Of a stretch of DNA of 40,064 nucleotides, positions 1-38,565 are shown in pieces. The notes under the pieces were generated by a model, which ran no database searches, had not been told where the DNA came from, and worked only from the letters and a program-made list of their open reading frames with translations. Where the stretch lies: contig MWDJ01000028.1 of the NCBI GenBank assembly GCA_002070505.1, forward strand, positions 1-40,064. The letters run 5' to 3'. The position numbers were made by a program, and so were the translations under genes. Position 1 is the first letter of the stretch, and each line of letters starts with the position of its first letter. This stretch comes from Bacteroidetes bacterium ADurb.Bin145. Its GTDB lineage: Bacteria > Bacteroidota > Bacteroidia > Bacteroidales > VadinHA17.

Positions 1-537
1 ACTGGCAAACGTGGTACCTGCAGCTACGGCATTTACTGTAAAAGTAAACTCCGTAACCAGGACTGTCAGCTCAGTGGCAATCTCAGCAACTAAAGTACTG
101 CTTACTCTTGCCAACCCCGTCGTCAACGGCGACGCCGTAACCGTGGCATATACAAAACCTGCCACCAACCCGTTGCAGACCGCCGCCGGAGGACAGGCAG
201 CATCACTGACGGTCCAAAGTGTGACAAACAATGTTGTCGCACCCAGCCCGGTTTATATTAGTTCTGTAATTGAGAATGCCACTCCCGCCAGGCTGGAAAT
301 GACATATAACCTTACACTGGCAAACGTGGTACCTGCAGCTACGGCATTTACTGTAAAAGTAAACTCCGTAACCAGGACTGTCAGCTCAGTCGCAATCTCA
401 GGGACGAAAGTGCTACTTACTCTTGCCAGCCCCGTCGTCAACGGCGATGCTGTAACTGTTGCATATACAAAACCTGCCACCAACCCGTTGCAGACCGCCG
501 CCGGAGGACAGGCAGCATCAATAACCTCACAGAATGT
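1..537 (+). repeat. Tandem swm-type coding repeat, 315-bp unit
   Basis: The sequence starting at base 1 recurs from base 316, a 315-bp (105-codon) period. Conserved blocks run about 1-222 and 316-537. The first ~75 bases of the two copies are identical, the next ~75 bases carry more than ten substitutions (several silent), and the following ~60 bases are identical again. More copies probably lie to the left of the window. Confidence 0.9.
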
Positions 538-28490: not shown

Positions 28491-29687
28491 CTACTTGAAT
28501 TCATTTATTGCCTTGACAACAGCATCTGCTTCATTCTGAGTCATAACCTGACTGATAGGCAAACTAAGAACTTCCCGATGGATTCTTTCGGTTACCGGCA
28601 ATTTCAGGCCGGCATATTCAGAGTATGCTTTCTGAAGATGCGGCGGAATCGGATAATGAATTAATGTCTGAATGCCATGTTGCTCCAGGTACTCCCTTAA
28701 CCGGTCACGATCAGGATGGCGCACCACAAAAAGATGCCATACATGACAGAGATTATCACGGATGGAGTTTGAAAAATAAGGCATGGTACCCGCAAAGGTC
28801 GTTTGATGCAGGCTCACTCCAGGCAGCATCACCTGCCTATTTTTTATGTTCAGATGATAATAATCGGACACTTCCCTCCGATGTTGGTTATCAGAATCCA
28901 GTCGCGGGAGTTTTACCCTGAGAACGGCTGCCTGTAATTCATCCAAACGGGAATTAATTCCTCTATAATTATGAACGTATTTTCTGACTGAGCCGTAATT
29001 TGCCAGAGATCTTACCACGGTGGCAAGGTCGGAATCATCTGTAGTTACAGCACCTCCATCCCCCAATGCGCCAAGATTTTTACCCGGGTAAAAACTGTGA
29101 CCTGCAGCATCGCCGAGTGATCCTGTTCGCCTGGAGGCATGGCTCTCCTCAATCCTTGAATCTGAGCCGTACCTATGAACCACAGTCGCACCTGCTGCCT
29201 GAGCATTATCTTCAATAATTTTCAGATCATGGGTTTTCGCGATCTGCTCTAATTTCTCAGACCAGACTGCCTGACCATAGAGATGAACTACAATAATAGC
29301 CCTGGTTTTGTCTGAGATAGCACCTTCAATCTGATCTATATCTATGTTGTAAGTGCCAGGATCAGGTTCAACAAAAACCGGTCTAAGCCTGTTGTCTGTA
29401 ACAGCGAGAACGGTTGCAATGAATGTGTTAGCCGGTACAATAACCTCATCACCTTCCTTCATTGTACCCATTTCAATGTATGCCTTCAGAATTAGGCGAA
29501 GAGCATCCAGACCGTTTGCAGTAGTGATACAATGATCGCATCCGATAAAGTCAGCGTATTCACTCTCAAAGGCAGCGGTCTCCTCTCCCAGTAAAAACCA
29601 GCCTCTCTTTAGAACTCCCGAAATTGCATCCGACAACCCGGGTTCAAAACTCGACGTAATTTTTTGCAGATCAAGAAATTTAATCAC
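28491..29687 (-). CDS. fdtB: FdtB/QdtB-like dTDP-3-amino-3,6-dideoxyhexose transaminase
   Basis: 398 residues, DegT/DnrJ/EryC1/StrS fold. PLP Lys203 lies in HSFYPGKNLGALGDGGAV, and Asp160 in IIEDNAQAAGA. Both match the 3-aminotransferase group (FdtB, QdtB, DesV-like) better than WecE. A ~19-residue insertion (about 171-189) precedes the GSLGDAAGHSF strand. The start is a GTG at 29687 overlapping the preceding TGA by 4 nt, so translation is probably coupled. With FdtA-like isomerases upstream it should aminate dTDP-3-keto-6-deoxyhexose at C3. Whether the galacto (Fuc3N) or gluco (Qui3N) product forms depends on the isomerase. Confidence 0.85.
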   Translation of the reverse strand: MIKFLDLQKITSSFEPGLSDAISGVLKRGWFLLGEETAAFESEYADFIGCDHCITTANGLDALRLILKAYIEMGTMKEGDEVIVPANTFIATVLAVTDNRLRPVFVEPDPGTYNIDIDQIEGAISDKTRAIIVVHLYGQAVWSEKLEQIAKTHDLKIIEDNAQAAGATVVHRYGSDSRIEESHASRRTGSLGDAAGHSFYPGKNLGALGDGGAVTTDDSDLATVVRSLANYGSVRKYVHNYRGINSRLDELQAAVLRVKLPRLDSDNQHRREVSDYYHLNIKNRQVMLPGVSLHQTTFAGTMPYFSNSIRDNLCHVWHLFVVRHPDRDRLREYLEQHGIQTLIHYPIPPHLQKAYSEYAGLKLPVTERIHREVLSLPISQVMTQNEADAVVKAINEFK

Positions 29688-30187
29688 ATTCCCTCCATTT
29701 TCCGTTTTTCTTCATCTGTAAAGCTCCGGATAATCTTTGCAGGATTACCACCTATTATAGTATAGGGTCCAAATGATTCATTTACATATGAATTCGCCGC
29801 AACAATGCAGAAGTCCCCCAGGGAAACACCTGGCATGATAATTGACCCTGATCCAATCCAGACATGGTTCCCGATCCTCACGGGTTTCCTGATAATCGGA
29901 AACACATTTTGCATGAGTTCCGATGCATTCGGTCCTGAGTCAACCATTATGCTGACATTCTGAGCTATACTGACATTGCGTCCTATTGTAAGCTTTGCCG
30001 CATAGCCATTTAACATACTGTTCATTCCAACATAACAACCTGATCCAATCTCAAGGAGATTATCAGGACTCCCAAAAACAGAACATCTCTTGGCAATCCT
30101 TACATTATCTCCGATTACGACATTGTTGACCGAGGATGAGACGTCAATTTCAACATCTTTCCCAAGATTGATATTCGAATATTTCAT
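29684..30187 (-). CDS. Left-handed beta-helix acyltransferase
   Basis: 167 residues built of hexapeptide repeats (VEIDVSSSVNNVVIGDNVRIAKR, LTIGRNVSIAQNVSI, VRIGNHVWIGSGSIIMPGVSLGD) ending with IIGGNPAKIIR, the usual CatB/LacA-type terminus. It overlaps both neighbours by 4 nt. In an Fdt module it could be the N-acetyltransferase (FdtC role), but it is clearly shorter than FdtC/QdtC as I recall them (about 260 residues), so an O-acetyltransferase is equally likely. The active-site His cannot be assigned with certainty. Confidence 0.8.
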   Translation of the reverse strand: MKYSNINLGKDVEIDVSSSVNNVVIGDNVRIAKRCSVFGSPDNLLEIGSGCYVGMNSMLNGYAAKLTIGRNVSIAQNVSIMVDSGPNASELMQNVFPIIRKPVRIGNHVWIGSGSIIMPGVSLGDFCIVAANSYVNESFGPYTIIGGNPAKIIRSFTDEEKRKMEGM

Positions 30188-31107
30188 TGAAAATTCATTT
30201 TAAGAAATGCTTTCATGACTTCATAAAAATAATCAAGGTCATGTGCAGTAAGACCTTGATGGACCGGAATGAAGTATGCCTCTTCACCATAAAAGACGCT
30301 TGACTGGATACCGTGTTCCCAAAAATGCTTTTTCAGCATTGGAAGGTCAATTTTATAATTCCCCGTTTTGAACATAAACACACCCGGGACATTACCCGGT
30401 GCCAGCACAAACCTTTCAGGCAGATCCAATGTATCGAACATGCTGCGCAGTGTCATGTAATTGGCAATTCTTTGCCTAATTATAGAATCTTTTTCTTTAA
30501 TATACTTCGAAAGAACGTTTTTTACGTAACGAACAATCCCGGGGTGTTGATCGGCTACCTGAATCGCTCCTGTTTTATTCCGTGCAACAAGAAGGCCTCC
30601 GACCTGTATCGGGAACATTTTAGGAAAACTGTATATAACGAAATCTCCTATTTCCCCGATTGTATCTTCTTTGTCTGATGAAAAAAAAGAACCCGCGCAA
30701 TCTTCAATGACAGGCAGGTTGAGGCCCCTGAGATGTTTCATCTCAGGGTAAGGATATCCGAATTCGTGATTAACGAACAAAACCTTTGTTGCAGGCCCGA
30801 TTTCCCTTGACCATTTACAGTACCTCTCTATCTCAATGGTAACACAACTGCTGATGTAGTAATTACCTGATGTCGTCAGAATAGTTACAATATCGTCTGG
30901 GTTGAGATCGAACTGCCCCAAGGCAATGTTTATCGCCTGGCGGCCGTTGTATGTATAAAGGTAATTATCGTAACCAAATCGCTCTGTAAAGTAGTTTTCA
31001 ATCAGGTCATCGTCAGGTAATATATGGTTCAAGGAAAGATCCCTGGTACAAAAAGGGCCAATCCGGTATGCAGGAAGACTGTATGGATCAGGATTAATGA
31101 CGAACAC
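30184..31107 (-). CDS. Short, diverged DegT-fold PLP-dependent protein
   Basis: 307 residues, about 70-90 shorter than usual DegT/DnrJ family members. Recognisable features are YNGRQAINIALGQ (53-65), VIEDCAGSFF (133-142, Asp136) and YSFPKMFPIQVGG (159-171), where Lys163 would bind PLP. Between them the TFVATA and VPVHLYG regions are replaced by different sequence. PLP chemistry looks possible, but aminotransferase function is not assured. The start is GTG. It is sandwiched between the FemAB-like gene (3 nt gap) and the beta-helix acyltransferase (4 nt overlap), so it belongs to the same decoration module. Confidence 0.7.
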   Translation of the reverse strand: MFVINPDPYSLPAYRIGPFCTRDLSLNHILPDDDLIENYFTERFGYDNYLYTYNGRQAINIALGQFDLNPDDIVTILTTSGNYYISSCVTIEIERYCKWSREIGPATKVLFVNHEFGYPYPEMKHLRGLNLPVIEDCAGSFFSSDKEDTIGEIGDFVIYSFPKMFPIQVGGLLVARNKTGAIQVADQHPGIVRYVKNVLSKYIKEKDSIIRQRIANYMTLRSMFDTLDLPERFVLAPGNVPGVFMFKTGNYKIDLPMLKKHFWEHGIQSSVFYGEEAYFIPVHQGLTAHDLDYFYEVMKAFLKMNFQ

Positions 31108-31110
31108 TGA

Positions 31111-32046
31111 TCAGAATTTATGTGGTTCCAGGACAAACCTGTATCTTAATGAAGAAACCGATTCGTGACTTTCTTTAAACCGCAAAAGTCCCTCATTGGG
31201 AATCCCGGACTCTGTTGATATACCAAGATCCATATACCTGTAACCTGCTGCTTTATAATGGGAGAACAGGTTGAGCAGAAGATAATCCATTGCTCTAAGA
31301 GGACGTCCTTCATCATTATCACCCCAGAATACAGCATAACATATCTCATGACTACTACGGTAGAATATTGCGGCGGCTATAATCTGCTTATTTTCTGACA
31401 CTACCTTGAAGAAATCAACTGGCCATAGTCTGCCAGTTGATATTATATCATCCAGTGTCATAAAAATTGGCCTTCCGAATTTTGCTCGGTTTATTCGAAT
31501 CAGATTGTATATCTCATCCCATTCAATTGGATCCTGGGTTAAACCAAACTGAAGTTTATTGCGTTGGGCTTGCCTGAAATACTCTCTGCTGTTTTTCTGA
31601 CTGTAACCTCCATTAAAAACTGCCAGATCAACCCAATTGGTGATATCAGGGCAAGAAGTCTGGTACCCGTGCCTGATGAGAGAGTTTATGGCTTTTGCAT
31701 TAAAAGAACCATGGTAAAGATCCGGAGGTGTAATTATCTCGATCCGCCTCAGGGATTTGGATTTTGCATAATCCGCAAGCTGTTTGAGGAATTTGTCAAT
31801 TTCACTTATATAAATGTTATCCCTCCTGAAATGAAATCCCCCAAAAGGAGCTGAAAAAGGGGAGAGTAACGTATCTCTCCTTATTCCGGCCAATAAACCA
31901 ACAGGTATTTCCAGGGCAGAATCTACAAGTCTGATAATAGAATCAACCTTCGACCTGTTCAGTTCGCAAAAAGCTCCTGAAATAAAAGGGTGTGGGTCAG
32001 AAGGAAACAATTTCTCAAATGTGACCCTGTCAACTTCAGCCAGCAT
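31111..32046 (-). CDS. FemAB-like GNAT acyl/aminoacyltransferase
   Basis: 311 residues. The pattern FSAPFGGFHFRR (about 62-73), ITNWVDLAVF, REYFRQAQRNKLQFGLT and AIFYRSSHEICYAVFWGDND ... AMDYLLLNLFSHYKAAGYRYMDLGIS is that of the double-GNAT FemAB/FmhB group and related capsule proteins. FemAB enzymes transfer aminoacyl groups from aminoacyl-tRNA; many relatives use acyl-CoA instead. Here an acceptor amine of a 3-amino-deoxysugar is likely. It overlaps the preceding FdtA-like gene by 11 nt. Confidence 0.72.
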   Translation of the reverse strand: MLAEVDRVTFEKLFPSDPHPFISGAFCELNRSKVDSIIRLVDSALEIPVGLLAGIRRDTLLSPFSAPFGGFHFRRDNIYISEIDKFLKQLADYAKSKSLRRIEIITPPDLYHGSFNAKAINSLIRHGYQTSCPDITNWVDLAVFNGGYSQKNSREYFRQAQRNKLQFGLTQDPIEWDEIYNLIRINRAKFGRPIFMTLDDIISTGRLWPVDFFKVVSENKQIIAAAIFYRSSHEICYAVFWGDNDEGRPLRAMDYLLLNLFSHYKAAGYRYMDLGISTESGIPNEGLLRFKESHESVSSLRYRFVLEPHKF

Positions 32047-32470
32047 TTATCTCTTTCCTGTACTTTAAAAAATCATTGTATTCTCTAATGTAGTCCTCAG
32101 GATTGTACTTCTCCGAGGCAAGTACCAGACAAACAGCCCCTGAAGAAAAGTTTACAAGCTCTCGCCAAATCCCAGGGACAACCATAAGTCCGTAATAAGG
32201 TCTATTAAGTGGTACTATTTTCCTGTTAATGCCGTCATCAAGTATAACATCAAAAGAGCCACCTGCCGCTACTATTAACTGGTAAATATTCTTATGGGCA
32301 TGTCCGCCTCTTTCAGCTCCTCCTGGAACATCATACAGGTAATATACGCGATGGATATTGAAGGGTAGATGGAGTTCATTCTGGAAAACAGTTAAATTCC
32401 CAGCCCTGTTATGAACCCGGGGCAGTTCAATAACATTACAATTATGTATGTCAGAAACCAATCTAATCAT
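32036..32470 (-). CDS. fdtA: FdtA/QdtA-family sugar 3,4-ketoisomerase, copy with intact His pair
   Basis: 144 residues, a cupin of the FdtA/WxcM-like family. The catalytic His pair is present as His57 and His59 (RGGHAHKN). VYYLYDVPGG and LASEKYNPEDYIREY are conserved family segments. The N-terminal DxRG-type motif is altered to NRAG (21-24). FdtA isomerises dTDP-4-keto-6-deoxyglucose to the 3-keto sugar used by FdtB. Its start overlaps the stop of the paralogous gene upstream by 4 nt (ATGA), so the two are coupled. Confidence 0.85.
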   Translation of the reverse strand: MIRLVSDIHNCNVIELPRVHNRAGNLTVFQNELHLPFNIHRVYYLYDVPGGAERGGHAHKNIYQLIVAAGGSFDVILDDGINRKIVPLNRPYYGLMVVPGIWRELVNFSSGAVCLVLASEKYNPEDYIREYNDFLKYRKEINAG

Positions 32471-32883
32471 TTATTCCTGTTCATCCGAATGAATTCCTCC
32501 CAATCCCTTATATAATCATCCTCCGAATAATCAGTTGAGGAAAGTATGAGAGCAAGTGAATTTGTGGAAAAGTTTTCAAGAGTCCGCCAAATCATTTTGG
32601 GCACAAGAACCCCATTATATGATCGATTCAGCATGAATCTCCATTCATCTTTACCATCATTGAGAACGATATCAAAACTGCCGGACAATGATACAATCAG
32701 TTCTTCGGTCTCCCTGAAAGCATGCCCTCCTCTCTGTTCTCCACCGGGAACATCATATATCCAGTATACTCTTCTTAGCCTAAATGGAAGATGAGTGTCT
32801 TCCTCAATAAATGAGAGATTTCCCCTCAAATCGTAGAACCTTGGTAATTGTATTAGACAGGGTGCTGCCAATTTCAATCTCAA
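32467..32883 (-). CDS. FdtA/QdtA-family cupin, copy lacking one catalytic His
   Basis: 138 residues, same family as the gene directly downstream. DLRG (18-21) keeps the substrate-side motif seen in FdtA, but the second catalytic His is Phe56 (His54-Ala-Phe56). VYWIYDVPGG and LSSTDYSEDDYIRDW are conserved. No ATG or GTG precedes the conserved region: the frame offers only TTG at 32883 (or 32877, 32871), 24 nt after the kinase stop codon and in the same frame. It may be a regulatory or structural partner of the second copy, or a separate activity that needs one His. Confidence 0.8.
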   Translation of the reverse strand: MRLKLAAPCLIQLPRFYDLRGNLSFIEEDTHLPFRLRRVYWIYDVPGGEQRGGHAFRETEELIVSLSGSFDIVLNDGKDEWRFMLNRSYNGVLVPKMIWRTLENFSTNSLALILSSTDYSEDDYIRDWEEFIRMNRNK

Positions 32884-32907: not shown

Positions 32908-35280
32908 CTAGCTTTTGATTATCCGGGCCAGGCCCTTTTTCTTCTCCTTTTCAGTTGTATAACCGTATTTTTCACCGTAGGAGTAATGCTTGTAATCAGA
33001 TTTCATTCCATTTACTACTAGACTGACCCCTTTAGCTCCGTTCGAGTGAATCTCATTCATTGTCCTCTCAAGAATATCTTTGAGAGTGTAACCCGGTCTG
33101 ACTACCAGTAAACAGGAATCAGCTTTGGATATTAAATTAAACGTGTCCGAAACAATTCCAATCGGAGGAGAGTCAATTATGATATAATCATATTTAGACT
33201 TCAGGGAATTTATCAGATCACTGGTCTTGTCCATAGCGATCAATTCTGATGGATTGGGTGGTATAGGTCCTGAGGAAATGATTGACAGATTATCATAAGG
33301 TGTCTCCTGGATTATTTCTTCCAGGCTATCTTTTCCGATGAGCCACGTGGATACGCCTTTATCATTCTTTAAGGAAAAATCCTGAAATATTTTAGGTTTC
33401 CTTAAGTCAAACCCGATCAATACTGTTTTTTTGTCCAACAGACTATAAACTGATGCAAGGTTAACCGCCGTGAAAGTTTTGCCTTCTCCCGGCATGGATG
33501 ATGTTACAAGAATTACAGGTGATTTAGCATCGCGAGTCAAAAATTGCATTCGTGACCTCAACAGACGATATGATTCGGCAATCGGTGAACCGGGACTGTC
33601 AAATATGGTCTTGTTTATCTTCCCTGCACTTAGGGGAATATGCCCCACAACAGGCATCCATGTTATCTTGTTGAGATCATCTTCTTTGATCTTATTGTTA
33701 AGGAGAAATGATAAGAACAGAATTATGAATGGTACCCCAAACCCGGCTAAGAGCCCCATAAAATAAATTTTTGTGGGATTAGGTGCAACCATCATGCTGA
33801 AGCGTTCATCAGCAGGATCAATGACCTCACTGTCAGATCTGTTTGATGCTTTTTGCATTTCCTGCTCAGCGCGTGTTTCCAGAAGAAAAGTATAGAGTTC
33901 ATCATTAAGCCTGAATTTCCTTTCTATACCTAGCAGTTGCCTTTCGGTGACTGGAAGTGCAGACGCCTGGGCGTTTGCCTGATTGATCTGCTGCTGATTT
34001 TCCGAACGAGCAAGACTGTTTGCCCGCCTTAACCCGTTCAGCGTCTCTCTCAGACTGGCCTTAGCTGTATTTATCCTTTGCTCCAGATTTCTCTGAAGGG
34101 GATTCAGTTCCCCGGCACCTCGGGTGGCCATTTGCCCCTGTAATTCGGCGAGTTCATCAACCAGTCTTGTCAACCCTGGATCATTTATGCCCATGGTCAT
34201 TGGAACGATTGGAATTTCTCCAGATTCATTCTTATTTAGGTAGTCTGCAAGATAATCATAGTAGTTTGCCTCAAGATTGAGTCGTGCCCTTTCATTTTCC
34301 AGCAGTGTGACCTGAGTAATTATTGACTGCCCCTGAGCAGAAAGATCCATTACACGATTAGAAGACCGGAACTGCTGCAGCCTGCTTTCTGTTAGTTGTA
34401 GAGAATCAGTTATACCTATTAGTTGATCGTCTATGAATTGTATTCGTCTTGCGGCTTCAATATTTTTTTTGTCAAGTGATATTGCCTGAAAATTCCTGAT
34501 ATGCTCATTTAGAAAATCTGCATCCTTCGCTCTGTTTGTCCCTGTTAAACTGATTTTAAGAATGGATCCTTCTCTTGATAAGAGCTCAACTATTATTCGG
34601 TTGCTGTAATAATTTACTAGGCGGCTAAGGCTATAAATTGTAAAGAAGATTTGCTGATTCTTATTATTTGTGAATGCTTTTTCGTTTCGGCATTCAATAA
34701 TAAAACTGCTGCCAGAATAGTCAATAGGTTCTCCGAATGTGCCATCTTTTTCAAATGGAAGATACTTTGATTCGGACTTAAGTTTATACTTATTGCTGCC
34801 AAGATAGGTTATCGAAAACTCCGTATCCTTAGGGAGAGGAATCTGATTCTCAGTTATAATCAGAACCGGATCCTCCGGATATAACGGGAGATTATTTCTT
34901 AAGGTTTTATAATAAAAATCCATTTCGAACTGCAGGGCTTTTAATGTCCTTTCAGTTAGGTCCCTTGATCGCAGGATCATCATTTGATTCTCCAGATTCT
35001 TCATTCCTCCAGGCAAACCAAGCCCTTGAAGAAGTGCCGAATTATCTACCAGAGGCCTGTCTTCTGTTTCATTGATAAGAATTGAAATTGAAGTCTGGTA
35101 TACAGGCATTGTATGTCCTATATAAAACCAGGCACAAAACAAAGCACTAGCAGTGGTTATAACAAACCAAAACCAGTTTTTAAGTATCATGGACAAAATT
35201 GCCTGAGGATCTATACCAGAAACTTCCTGCGTTTTGATTCCCGGTTGTTCTTTCTGAATATAACTGCCTTTCCTTCTCAT
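32908..35280 (-). CDS. wzc: Polysaccharide co-polymerase/tyrosine autokinase (Wzc-like)
   Basis: 790 residues. Order: TM1 at about 36-56; Wzz domain; a long periplasmic coiled-coil region (about 270-470); TM2 at about 504-527; cytoplasmic BY-kinase with Walker A SSMPGEGKT (594-602), Walker A' IGFDLRKP with Asp625 and Walker B IIIDSPP with Asp703. The C-terminal tail has Tyr763, 766, 768, 772 and 774, the usual autophosphorylation cluster, and then a basic end. The protein controls chain length and coordinates export with Wza. It is a single fused polypeptide as in Gram-negative Wzc. No partner low-molecular-weight tyrosine phosphatase (Wzb) is in the window. Confidence 0.95.
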   Translation of the reverse strand: MRRKGSYIQKEQPGIKTQEVSGIDPQAILSMILKNWFWFVITTASALFCAWFYIGHTMPVYQTSISILINETEDRPLVDNSALLQGLGLPGGMKNLENQMMILRSRDLTERTLKALQFEMDFYYKTLRNNLPLYPEDPVLIITENQIPLPKDTEFSITYLGSNKYKLKSESKYLPFEKDGTFGEPIDYSGSSFIIECRNEKAFTNNKNQQIFFTIYSLSRLVNYYSNRIIVELLSREGSILKISLTGTNRAKDADFLNEHIRNFQAISLDKKNIEAARRIQFIDDQLIGITDSLQLTESRLQQFRSSNRVMDLSAQGQSIITQVTLLENERARLNLEANYYDYLADYLNKNESGEIPIVPMTMGINDPGLTRLVDELAELQGQMATRGAGELNPLQRNLEQRINTAKASLRETLNGLRRANSLARSENQQQINQANAQASALPVTERQLLGIERKFRLNDELYTFLLETRAEQEMQKASNRSDSEVIDPADERFSMMVAPNPTKIYFMGLLAGFGVPFIILFLSFLLNNKIKEDDLNKITWMPVVGHIPLSAGKINKTIFDSPGSPIAESYRLLRSRMQFLTRDAKSPVILVTSSMPGEGKTFTAVNLASVYSLLDKKTVLIGFDLRKPKIFQDFSLKNDKGVSTWLIGKDSLEEIIQETPYDNLSIISSGPIPPNPSELIAMDKTSDLINSLKSKYDYIIIDSPPIGIVSDTFNLISKADSCLLVVRPGYTLKDILERTMNEIHSNGAKGVSLVVNGMKSDYKHYSYGEKYGYTTEKEKKKGLARIIKS

Positions 35281-37446: not shown

Positions 37447-38565
37447 TTATACTTGTTCAAAAAATGTATCAGGATCGGCTGGATCGTATGGTTCATTTAT
37501 CCAGAAAATAGTATACAGGTCTTCGTTACCTGTGTTGGTAATATTGTGAGTGTGCCATACCGGCATATCAACATAGGATGGTGCATTTCCGTCAAGATCG
37601 AATGAATTGATTTTATCCGTTCCTATTCGCCGAAGCTGTATTTTTGCCTTCCCCTTGATCACTGCAAACCTTTCTGCTTTCCTTGTATGGAAATGATTCC
37701 CCCTGGTGATTCCGGGCTTCGTTGTTGAGAATGAAATCTGTCCACCGCTGTTGAGTTTTACGGTTTCAACAAATGAGCCCCGTTCATCAGTGTTCAATTT
37801 CAGCCTGAATGGGAAATAACTCCCGTGATCTATATAACATAAAAACGTTATGAAAAGATTCCGCTCAAAAGAATCGGTAAGGTCCGGTATAATCCCTTTC
37901 TCAGAATATTTTGCCTTGAAACTCTGCAAAAGGGTCAGGATCTCTGTTACACGGGCTTCGTCCGTAGGTGTTATCCTGAATTCATTGTCAGCAATTCTGT
38001 TCTCAATGAGGTAATAGATAATTCTCACCAGGTCACCGATGTAGATAAGCTTCAGCTGGGCATCGACCTCAACCCTGGGCTGTTCATTATGAGTAAGCTG
38101 GTGGGAAAAAGTCGCAACAACGGAATTGTAATAAGGATTCCCAAACGGGCCGAAAACATTGGGTATTACCATTCCGGTGAATATGCCCCCGTTTCTTTCA
38201 GCCCACTCTGCAAGCAGTCTTCTTCCCTCACGCTTGGATTTTCCAAATACATTATCCCGCTCCTCCTGGGTAGAAGATGAGAACAGCACATGAGGCTTTA
38301 CACCGGTTGTCTCCAGGGCTGATATCAGCTTACTGACCAACTCAACATTTGTGTTATAAATTGTCTGTGGATCATTATGCCTGTTTAAAGCAGCCAGATG
38401 AACTATTGTGTCACATTGCCCAACAAATGTTTCCAGTTTATCCTGATGCTGAAAGAAGTCATCGTGAAATGGAATTAATTCCACTTCACCCTTCTTCACC
38501 GAAAGATAATTATAAAGATGCGTTCCTATAAATCCGGCCTGACCGGTTATCCCTATCTTAATCAT
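37447..38565 (-). CDS. fnlB: UDP-2-acetamido-2,6-dideoxy-hexulose reductase, SDR-cupin fusion (FnlB/CapF)
   Basis: 372 residues, two domains as in CapF. The N-terminal extended SDR (TGQAGFIGTHLY, 8-19; HLAALNRHNDP; FSSSTQEERDNVFGKSK) binds NADPH. The C-terminal cupin from about 255 holds GITRGNHFHTRKAERFAVIKG and DMPVWHTHNITN, with the His residues that bind metal in CapF. It epimerises and reduces the keto sugar made by CapE/FnlA on the route to UDP-L-FucNAc. FnlA/CapE is not next to it, so the precursor must come from a gene elsewhere or beyond the right edge. Confidence 0.92.
   Translation of the reverse strand: MIKIGITGQAGFIGTHLYNYLSVKKGEVELIPFHDDFFQHQDKLETFVGQCDTIVHLAALNRHNDPQTIYNTNVELVSKLISALETTGVKPHVLFSSSTQEERDNVFGKSKREGRRLLAEWAERNGGIFTGMVIPNVFGPFGNPYYNSVVATFSHQLTHNEQPRVEVDAQLKLIYIGDLVRIIYYLIENRIADNEFRITPTDEARVTEILTLLQSFKAKYSEKGIIPDLTDSFERNLFITFLCYIDHGSYFPFRLKLNTDERGSFVETVKLNSGGQISFSTTKPGITRGNHFHTRKAERFAVIKGKAKIQLRRIGTDKINSFDLDGNAPSYVDMPVWHTHNITNTGNEDLYTIFWINEPYDPADPDTFFEQV

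Follow-up and report, generated by a model that had tools for sequence, protein, structure and literature searches.

Paired FdtA-like cupins of Bacteroidota probably form a heterodimeric ketoisomerase with an active site shared between two chains

Our analysis suggests that two overlapping FdtA-like genes in the window, a stretch of 40,064 nucleotides of contig MWDJ01000028.1 from Bacteroidetes bacterium ADurb.Bin145, probably encode the subunits of a domain-swapped heterodimeric dTDP-4-keto-6-deoxyglucose 3,4-ketoisomerase that has a single, composite active site. We favour the heterodimer because of the fixed order of the two genes, the reciprocal pattern of their motifs, the existence of natural fusions, the division of conservation between arm and core, the further decay, in a few pairs, of an upstream barrel whose arm is retained, and the strand swap predicted for the fusions. 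The reaction, the single active site per dimer and the mutual dependence of the two chains are what we infer from these comparisons. An earlier note on this DNA had proposed a heterodimer with one complete site built from both chains; the proposal fits the comparative results better than its rivals and is supported, if unproved.

Results

Both copies belong to the FdtA family, with scores of 159.7 bits (upstream) and 174.3 bits (downstream) against the PF05523 profile (cut-off 23), and they are 44% identical when aligned. The earlier note had described DxRG at residues 18-21 and F56 in the upstream copy, NRAG and H57/H59 in the downstream copy, and a 4-nt overlap between the genes; the coordinates and motifs proved exact, and the overlap is the ATGA at 32467-32470 (Table 1). 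The HxH motif is thus complete in the downstream chain (H57, H59) and incomplete in the upstream one (H54, F56); neither chain has both DxRG and HxH, and together the two have both. Alignment columns are numbered here after the QdtA chain, which corresponds to the published FdtA number plus 2. We take H49 and H51 of FdtA (H51 and H53 of QdtA) to be the catalytic histidines and Tyr37 to be the putative acid, while positions 17 and 97 presumably have a role in the stereochemistry of the ketoisomerase product. The upstream copy retains the first histidine (FdtA H49, QdtA H51) and has lost only the second; since the FdtA mutants named in PDB titles are H49N and H51N, the lost residue corresponds to FdtA H51 (QdtA H53).

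Table 1. Features of the gene pair and its surroundings, in positions of the window.
Feature	Position	Strand	Remarks
Upstream FdtA-like gene	32467..32883	-	138 aa, TTG start as listed; proposed arm donor with disabled barrel
DLRG motif, residues 18-21, upstream copy	32821..32832	-	In the N-terminal arm
H54-A-F56, upstream copy	32716..32724	-	Phe in place of the second His
W41, S88, T107, N108, upstream copy			Upstream-type columns 38, 85, 104 and 105
ATGA	32467..32470		4 bases; stop of upstream and start of downstream gene
Downstream FdtA-like gene	32036..32470	-	144 aa, ATG start; proposed catalytic barrel
NRAG, residues 21-24, downstream copy	32399..32410	-	Ala in place of the DxRG Arg
H57-A-H59, downstream copy	32294..32302	-	His pair intact
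GNAT-like acyltransferase gene	31111..32046	-	PF13480, 20.8 bits (cut-off 22); possible acyl-transfer step
Short DegT-like protein	30184-31107		307 aa; weak aminotransferase match, 34 bits
Hexapeptide acyltransferase	29684..30187	-	PF00132; candidate for an N-acetylation step
DegT/DnrJ/EryC1 aminotransferase	28491..29687	-	FdtB/QdtB-like; candidate next enzyme of the pathway
Wzz/BY-kinase-like gene	32908-35280		Flanks the pair on the side opposite the GNAT-like gene
Reductase with C-terminal cupin	37447-38565		PF14667; best NCBIfam match WbcJ-like, below cut-off

The same division recurs within the genome, whose seven PF05523 matches consist of three tandem pairs (on contigs C28, C44 and C45) and, at a contig end, an upstream-type fragment (DLRG/HAF). 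All three pairs are split alike, with DLRG/HAF, DNRG/HAF and DDRG/HAL in the upstream copies, and NRAG, NVAG and DRAG, each with HAH, in the downstream copies. The earlier note had called for a survey of the paired pattern in Bacteroidota, and this bore it out. A family-profile search of 395 genomes of the phylum, which favours neither copy, gave matches in 136 (sample 1); the 93 regions retained have listed matches down to 41 bits and exclude the genome itself, and one of them (L209) gave zero matches on re-search. Taking genes less than 250 bases apart as adjacent, we found 27 adjacent pairs. Every upstream copy has DxRG without the second histidine, which is replaced by Tyr (15), Phe (10), Leu (1) or Lys (1); every downstream copy has HxH, and 26 of them lack the motif Arg, the exception being L122 (DRRG). 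The full pattern is therefore present in 26/27 survey pairs as well as in 3/3 pairs of the genome itself, which rules out chance or a local oddity. At a further locus, L135, an upstream-type copy and a DRRG/HAH copy lie about 870 bases apart; it was not scored as a pair and was also kept out of the close stand-alone relatives.

These close relatives (score >160, n=33) have the Arg in 32 cases, [DE]xRG in 31 and HxH in all 33; three of them have further copies in the same locus or genome. Among 34 more distant stand-alone relatives, 15 lack the Arg and keep HxH, and two lack the second histidine.

A second sample came from a scan of genome contigs with an upstream-type query, and is biased towards that query; it comprises the best 80 of 273 confirmed places. 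The full pattern was found at 77 of the 82 junctions in these best 80 of 273, including L060, which has EKRG upstream. The exceptions are L044 and L046, whose downstream copies have the Arg without the Asp, L012, whose downstream copy is incomplete, and the second junctions of the three-copy arrays L046 and L047. Both arrays consist of an upstream-type copy followed by two HxH copies, and L047 has an extra, partial upstream-type copy upstream of the array. Going by their titles, 73 of these best 80 of 273 records are from Bacteroidota, and the other seven from Treponema (2), Chlorobiota/Chlorobiaceae (2), Desulfobacteraceae, Opitutales and Phycisphaerales, with the proviso that several records are metagenome bins and that taxon names may be off. 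Samples 1 and 2 overlap in part, L019 and L129 being identical, and the counts given below over 109 pairs combine the two and so come partly from the best 80 of 273. The motif Gly is kept in 100% of the 109 downstream copies, so that the consistent loss is that of the motif Arg.

Two further samples were taken from the phyla of L043 (sample 3, matches in 34 of 198 genomes) and L055 (sample 4, matches in 68 of 247). They contributed ten two-copy pairs (L212, L234, L235, L236, L239, L240, L241, L264, L265 and L267), of which L236 and L212 are themselves the centres of these samples; L213 repeats the three-copy array already described for L046. In each of the ten upstream copies DxRG is intact and one histidine, or the pair, is gone; all ten downstream copies have HxH, with the Arg absent from nine (the exception is L267, with ERRG). 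Two pairs, L239 and L240, go further: their upstream copies keep DxRG and have TNN or RNN in place of HxH, while their downstream copies keep HAH and lack DxRG. The upstream copy of L241 has YAH and has lost the first histidine. Losses also occur in stand-alone copies. The second histidine is gone from L263 (HAL), L242-L244 and L247 (HAN), L208 (HAG) and L196 (HRY, partial), and the Arg is gone from L233 and L132, which keep HAH. L242, L243, L244 and L247, which have HxN with DERG or DENG, possibly form a separate subgroup.

We placed these copies in a tree of 174 rows, made up of all of the genome's own and survey pairs, 30 random scan pairs, singles scoring >110 and a few others, without the upstream copies of L239 and L240 (score <60); its bootstrap is unsettled. 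The upstream copies form one starred clade (100/98) of 64 rows, namely 60 upstream copies, the upstream copy of L241, L007, L047 and L135, and the upstream type is thus, on this tree, of single origin. The downstream copies fall mostly (57/60) into one unstarred group (93/91), together with the three downstream copies of L239-L241 and one of L135; those of L122, L131 and L068 are placed outside it. The downstream copy of L122 clusters with singles and retains DRRG, and the tree leaves room for some downstream partners that may have been replaced. We also considered L239-L241 as independent convergence and rejected this, because the upstream copy of L241 lies in the upstream clade and the three downstream copies lie in the downstream group; on the tree, all three appear to represent advanced stages within a single lineage.

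The two copies differ not only in their motifs but also in which part of the protein follows the single-copy pattern. We scored the match of an arm (columns 10-33, 7 sites) and a core (columns 35-130, 44 sites) to the conserved residues of the 33 close singles, over 107 of 112 junctions that are related and hence not independent; left out were L012 and L026 (incomplete), L025 (ambiguous) and the two second junctions of arrays. The arm matches the singles at 0.99 in upstream and 0.62 in downstream copies, and the core at 0.70 and 0.87, respectively. Both directions are seen in 96 of the 107 pairs, with the core failing in ten and the arm in one. The limits of the arm were set after inspection of L239 and L240; in a scan of all segments of arm length, the maximum is at column 10. 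Plain entropy is 1.15 for the upstream arm versus 1.82 for the downstream arm, and 1.16 versus 1.19 for the cores. Since core entropy is alike in both copies, the upstream core has departed from the pattern of the single copies without becoming loose in general; by this measure the upstream barrel is, in Bacteroidota, changed rather than decayed.

The disabled upstream barrel seems, moreover, to be under a constraint of its own, as judged from its conserved columns. W38, S85, T104 and N105 are near-invariant in upstream copies (97-100%) and occur in at most 15% of singles or downstream copies, and the upstream copies (n=109) keep the first histidine in 100% and Tyr37 in 86%. On the downstream side, Phe37 occurs in 36 of 109 pairs, and 35/109 downstream copies combine it with Ala or Ser at position 97, so that the composite site would not always be FdtA-like. 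A subtype of 32/109 pairs has Phe37 with Ala/Ser97 downstream and Tyr37/Arg97 upstream, and the Tyr/Arg type of the window (columns 37/97, downstream) is found in 55/109 pairs. The converse, Phe37 upstream with Tyr downstream, occurs in 11/109. The idea that Tyr37 is itself a residue of the swapped arm was rejected, given the conflicting Phe37 data and L239 and L240, where Tyr37 stays with the downstream core.

The two domains lie in a single frame at six scan loci (among the best 80 of 273), each time with the upstream half first. Five are clean fusions (L037, L053, L057, L079 and L086), all in upstream-downstream order; the sixth, L025, has an ambiguous residue in its reading and was excluded from the clean fusions and from the folds. 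Among the unfused pairs, a start could be named for 101 of 102 by the crude rule of taking the nearest in-frame start, and on this rule the downstream start overlaps the upstream stop in 89 of 101, by four bases in 20.

AlphaFold models were made of two fusions, L053 and L079 (pLDDT 91.7 and 92.6, pTM 0.88 for both), each from an alignment of the five fusions to which 37 downstream copies were added over the second half, so that the first half had five rows. The models are of fusions, not of the separate chains of the window, and the swap was read indirectly, from the first and last residues in VIA-align. FdtA-family chains match one fusion half contiguously (7n67_B, 133 residues, rmsd 1.3; FdtA itself, 2pa7_B, 134 residues, rmsd 1.8), as do RmlC-type chains, so the chain topology of FdtA is that of the fusion halves. 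Compact cupins span both halves: in model one CapF aligns over 6..281 (113 residues), KdgF over 5..274 (100) and CENP-C over 1..269 (104), and in model two the ranges are 7..280, 6..273 and 2..268. As these one-barrel cupins span both halves, a barrel would have to be built from the arm of the upstream half and the core of the downstream half, and in both models the upstream arm is predicted to enter the downstream barrel. This reading also suggests a swap in the crystallised chains of the FdtA family. The paper on FdtA reportedly describes a dimer with swapped strands, in agreement with this reading of the fusion models.

The neighbourhood of the pair is that of a polysaccharide cluster. The GNAT-like gene shares 11 bases with the downstream copy and is followed by the genes for the short DegT-like protein, the hexapeptide acyltransferase and the DegT aminotransferase, so that the link with a sugar aminotransferase and an acyltransferase expected of the FdtA/QdtA type is present in the window. 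RmlA and RmlB score above their cut-offs elsewhere in the genome. An aminotransferase homologue lies within 3 kb at 16/27 survey pair loci and 48/80 scan pair loci (best 80 of 273), and also at 8/32 close and 25/34 distant stand-alone loci; the link is thus not special to pairs. Stand-alone DxRG/HAH copies are found directly before an aminotransferase gene on plasmids of Aminobacter, Ruegeria and Niveispirillum (31 matching records; three of the four regions opened have this arrangement and the fourth is unannotated). Several other features of these regions may be recorded. The short DegT-like protein, near the full-length aminotransferase, is perhaps another degenerate partner. The reductase gene adjoins a UDP-GlcNAc 2-epimerase gene and perhaps belongs to another pathway leading to a 6-deoxy amino sugar. 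In L135 the translation of the gene ahead of the upstream-type copy starts like RmlA (by eye, unscored), and in L024 (3377-4246) a downstream-type copy is fused to a GNAT acetyltransferase domain.

Discussion

In the arrangement that we favour, each chain would pass its N-terminal arm (approximately columns 10-33) into the barrel of its partner. The upstream-type arm carries D-x-R-G-N-L-[ST]-x-x-E, and the downstream barrel, with both histidines, would be completed by the Arg of this DxRG to give one complete site. The reciprocal combination, the upstream barrel lacking the second histidine and the downstream arm lacking the Arg, would form a second, disabled site. The conservation of the upstream core and its own invariant residues make a plain 'dead site' insufficient as an explanation. 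A broader reading, which we consider less likely than not, is that the pair is a widespread obligate two-subunit ketoisomerase whose upstream subunit, besides donating its arm, would have a rebuilt site (W38, F/Y53, T104, N105) that now serves in regulation, in binding or in a second catalysis.

Known enzymes of the family offer close points of comparison. FdtA of Aneurinibacillus thermoaerophilus (PDB 2PA7) has the same PF05523 family membership and fold, but holds in a single chain both the DxRG and the HxH that are here split over two, neither chain of the window having both. QdtA of Thermoanaerobacterium (4O9E) resembles the downstream copy: it has HxH but not the DxRG Arg, whose column is Tyr17 in QdtA; this position was engineered together with R97 in the Y17R/R97H mutant (4ZU7). 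The residue at position 17 is Ala in the downstream copy of the window, and nine different non-Arg residues occupy it in the surveyed downstream copies. The QdtA entries name a single protein, unlike the pair in the window. WlaRB of Campylobacter jejuni (5TPU) combines Arg17 and Arg97 in one chain; the composite site is predicted to unite the same two residues from two chains (Arg17 upstream, Arg97 downstream). From these residues, our guess is a 'gluco' product for a Qui3N-type sugar.

QdtA also provides an argument for an alternative that we consider unlikely, namely that the downstream protein works by itself as a homodimer of the QdtA kind, and that the upstream one forms a separate homodimer and serves the same pathway in a different way. 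The DxRG Arg is, to judge by the alignments, not essential in the wider family: it is Tyr in QdtA and missing from the 15 of 34 distant stand-alone relatives that keep HxH, and the downstream copy might therefore work alone. The upstream core, for its part, is conserved like the downstream core and has invariant residues of its own. Separate homodimers would nevertheless leave unexplained why the order is identical in 27/27 adjacent survey pairs, why natural fusions exist and why the arm is retained upstream though that barrel lacks the second histidine. They also sit poorly with the starred clade of 64 upstream-type rows, of which just three were scored as single: L007 is a contig-end fragment, L047 a partial copy beside an array and L135 one of two separated copies. 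Also counting against the heterodimer are the few downstream copies that keep DxRG or the Arg, those of L122, L044, L046 and L267. Still less likely is a heterodimer with two active barrels, catalysing successive steps or acting on different substrates with different chemistry at the upstream site, because, despite the upstream first histidine and Tyr37 and the near-invariance of W38, S85, T104 and N105 in that type alone, both histidines are missing from the upstream copies of L239 and L240 and the first from that of L241, and Tyr37 has become Phe upstream with Tyr kept downstream in 11/109 pairs.

The composite heterodimer also invites comparison with cupins and enzymes outside the family. 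RmlC is encoded by one gene and has no division of labour between its chains. RmlC-type dTDP-sugar epimerases (7PWB) are cupins with exchanged strands, as we propose for the pair in the window. The paper on the C. burnetii RmlC paralogue (7PWB) describes F21, R25, F28, E30 and others, from both protomers, as holding TDP, and, going by the spacing of the marks there, R25, F28 and E30 are among the residues of the domain-swapped strands (PMC9095892). The VIA-align alignments to 7pwb start with 157 on 9 in one fusion model and with 1 on 10 in the other which, assuming no gap, places the DxRG Arg column on RmlC residue 25 in both. In hhalign, FdtA and RmlC rows align weakly over DxRG and RGxH (E 0.04 with close singles, 0.049 with all rows) and downstream rows over the RGxH part alone (E 0.49), the 11 of 21 RmlC rows used having been picked by the DxRG motif itself. 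We regard the putative correspondence between the FdtA and RmlC motifs as a lead only. Prozymes, such as that of trypanosomatid AdoMet decarboxylase, are paralogues without catalytic residues that are kept as partners. The pair in the window would differ from them in that its disabled member seems to contribute a residue to the active site by strand swap.

What sets the pair apart is the division of the motifs over two genes, known FdtA-type enzymes being the product of a single gene. A search of openly licensed literature, by titles and the starts of abstracts, found no paper on a paired or heterodimeric FdtA, though one may exist in print. If our reading is correct, the separate annotation of each gene as an 'FdtA/QdtA family cupin' misleads, and tests of single genes could yield false negatives, with consequences for the reconstruction of the sugars of Bacteroidota surface polysaccharides. 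The natural fusions are ready-made constructs for testing it. The pairs would then also represent a clean natural case of a domain-swapped homodimer that became an interdependent heterodimer by reciprocal loss.
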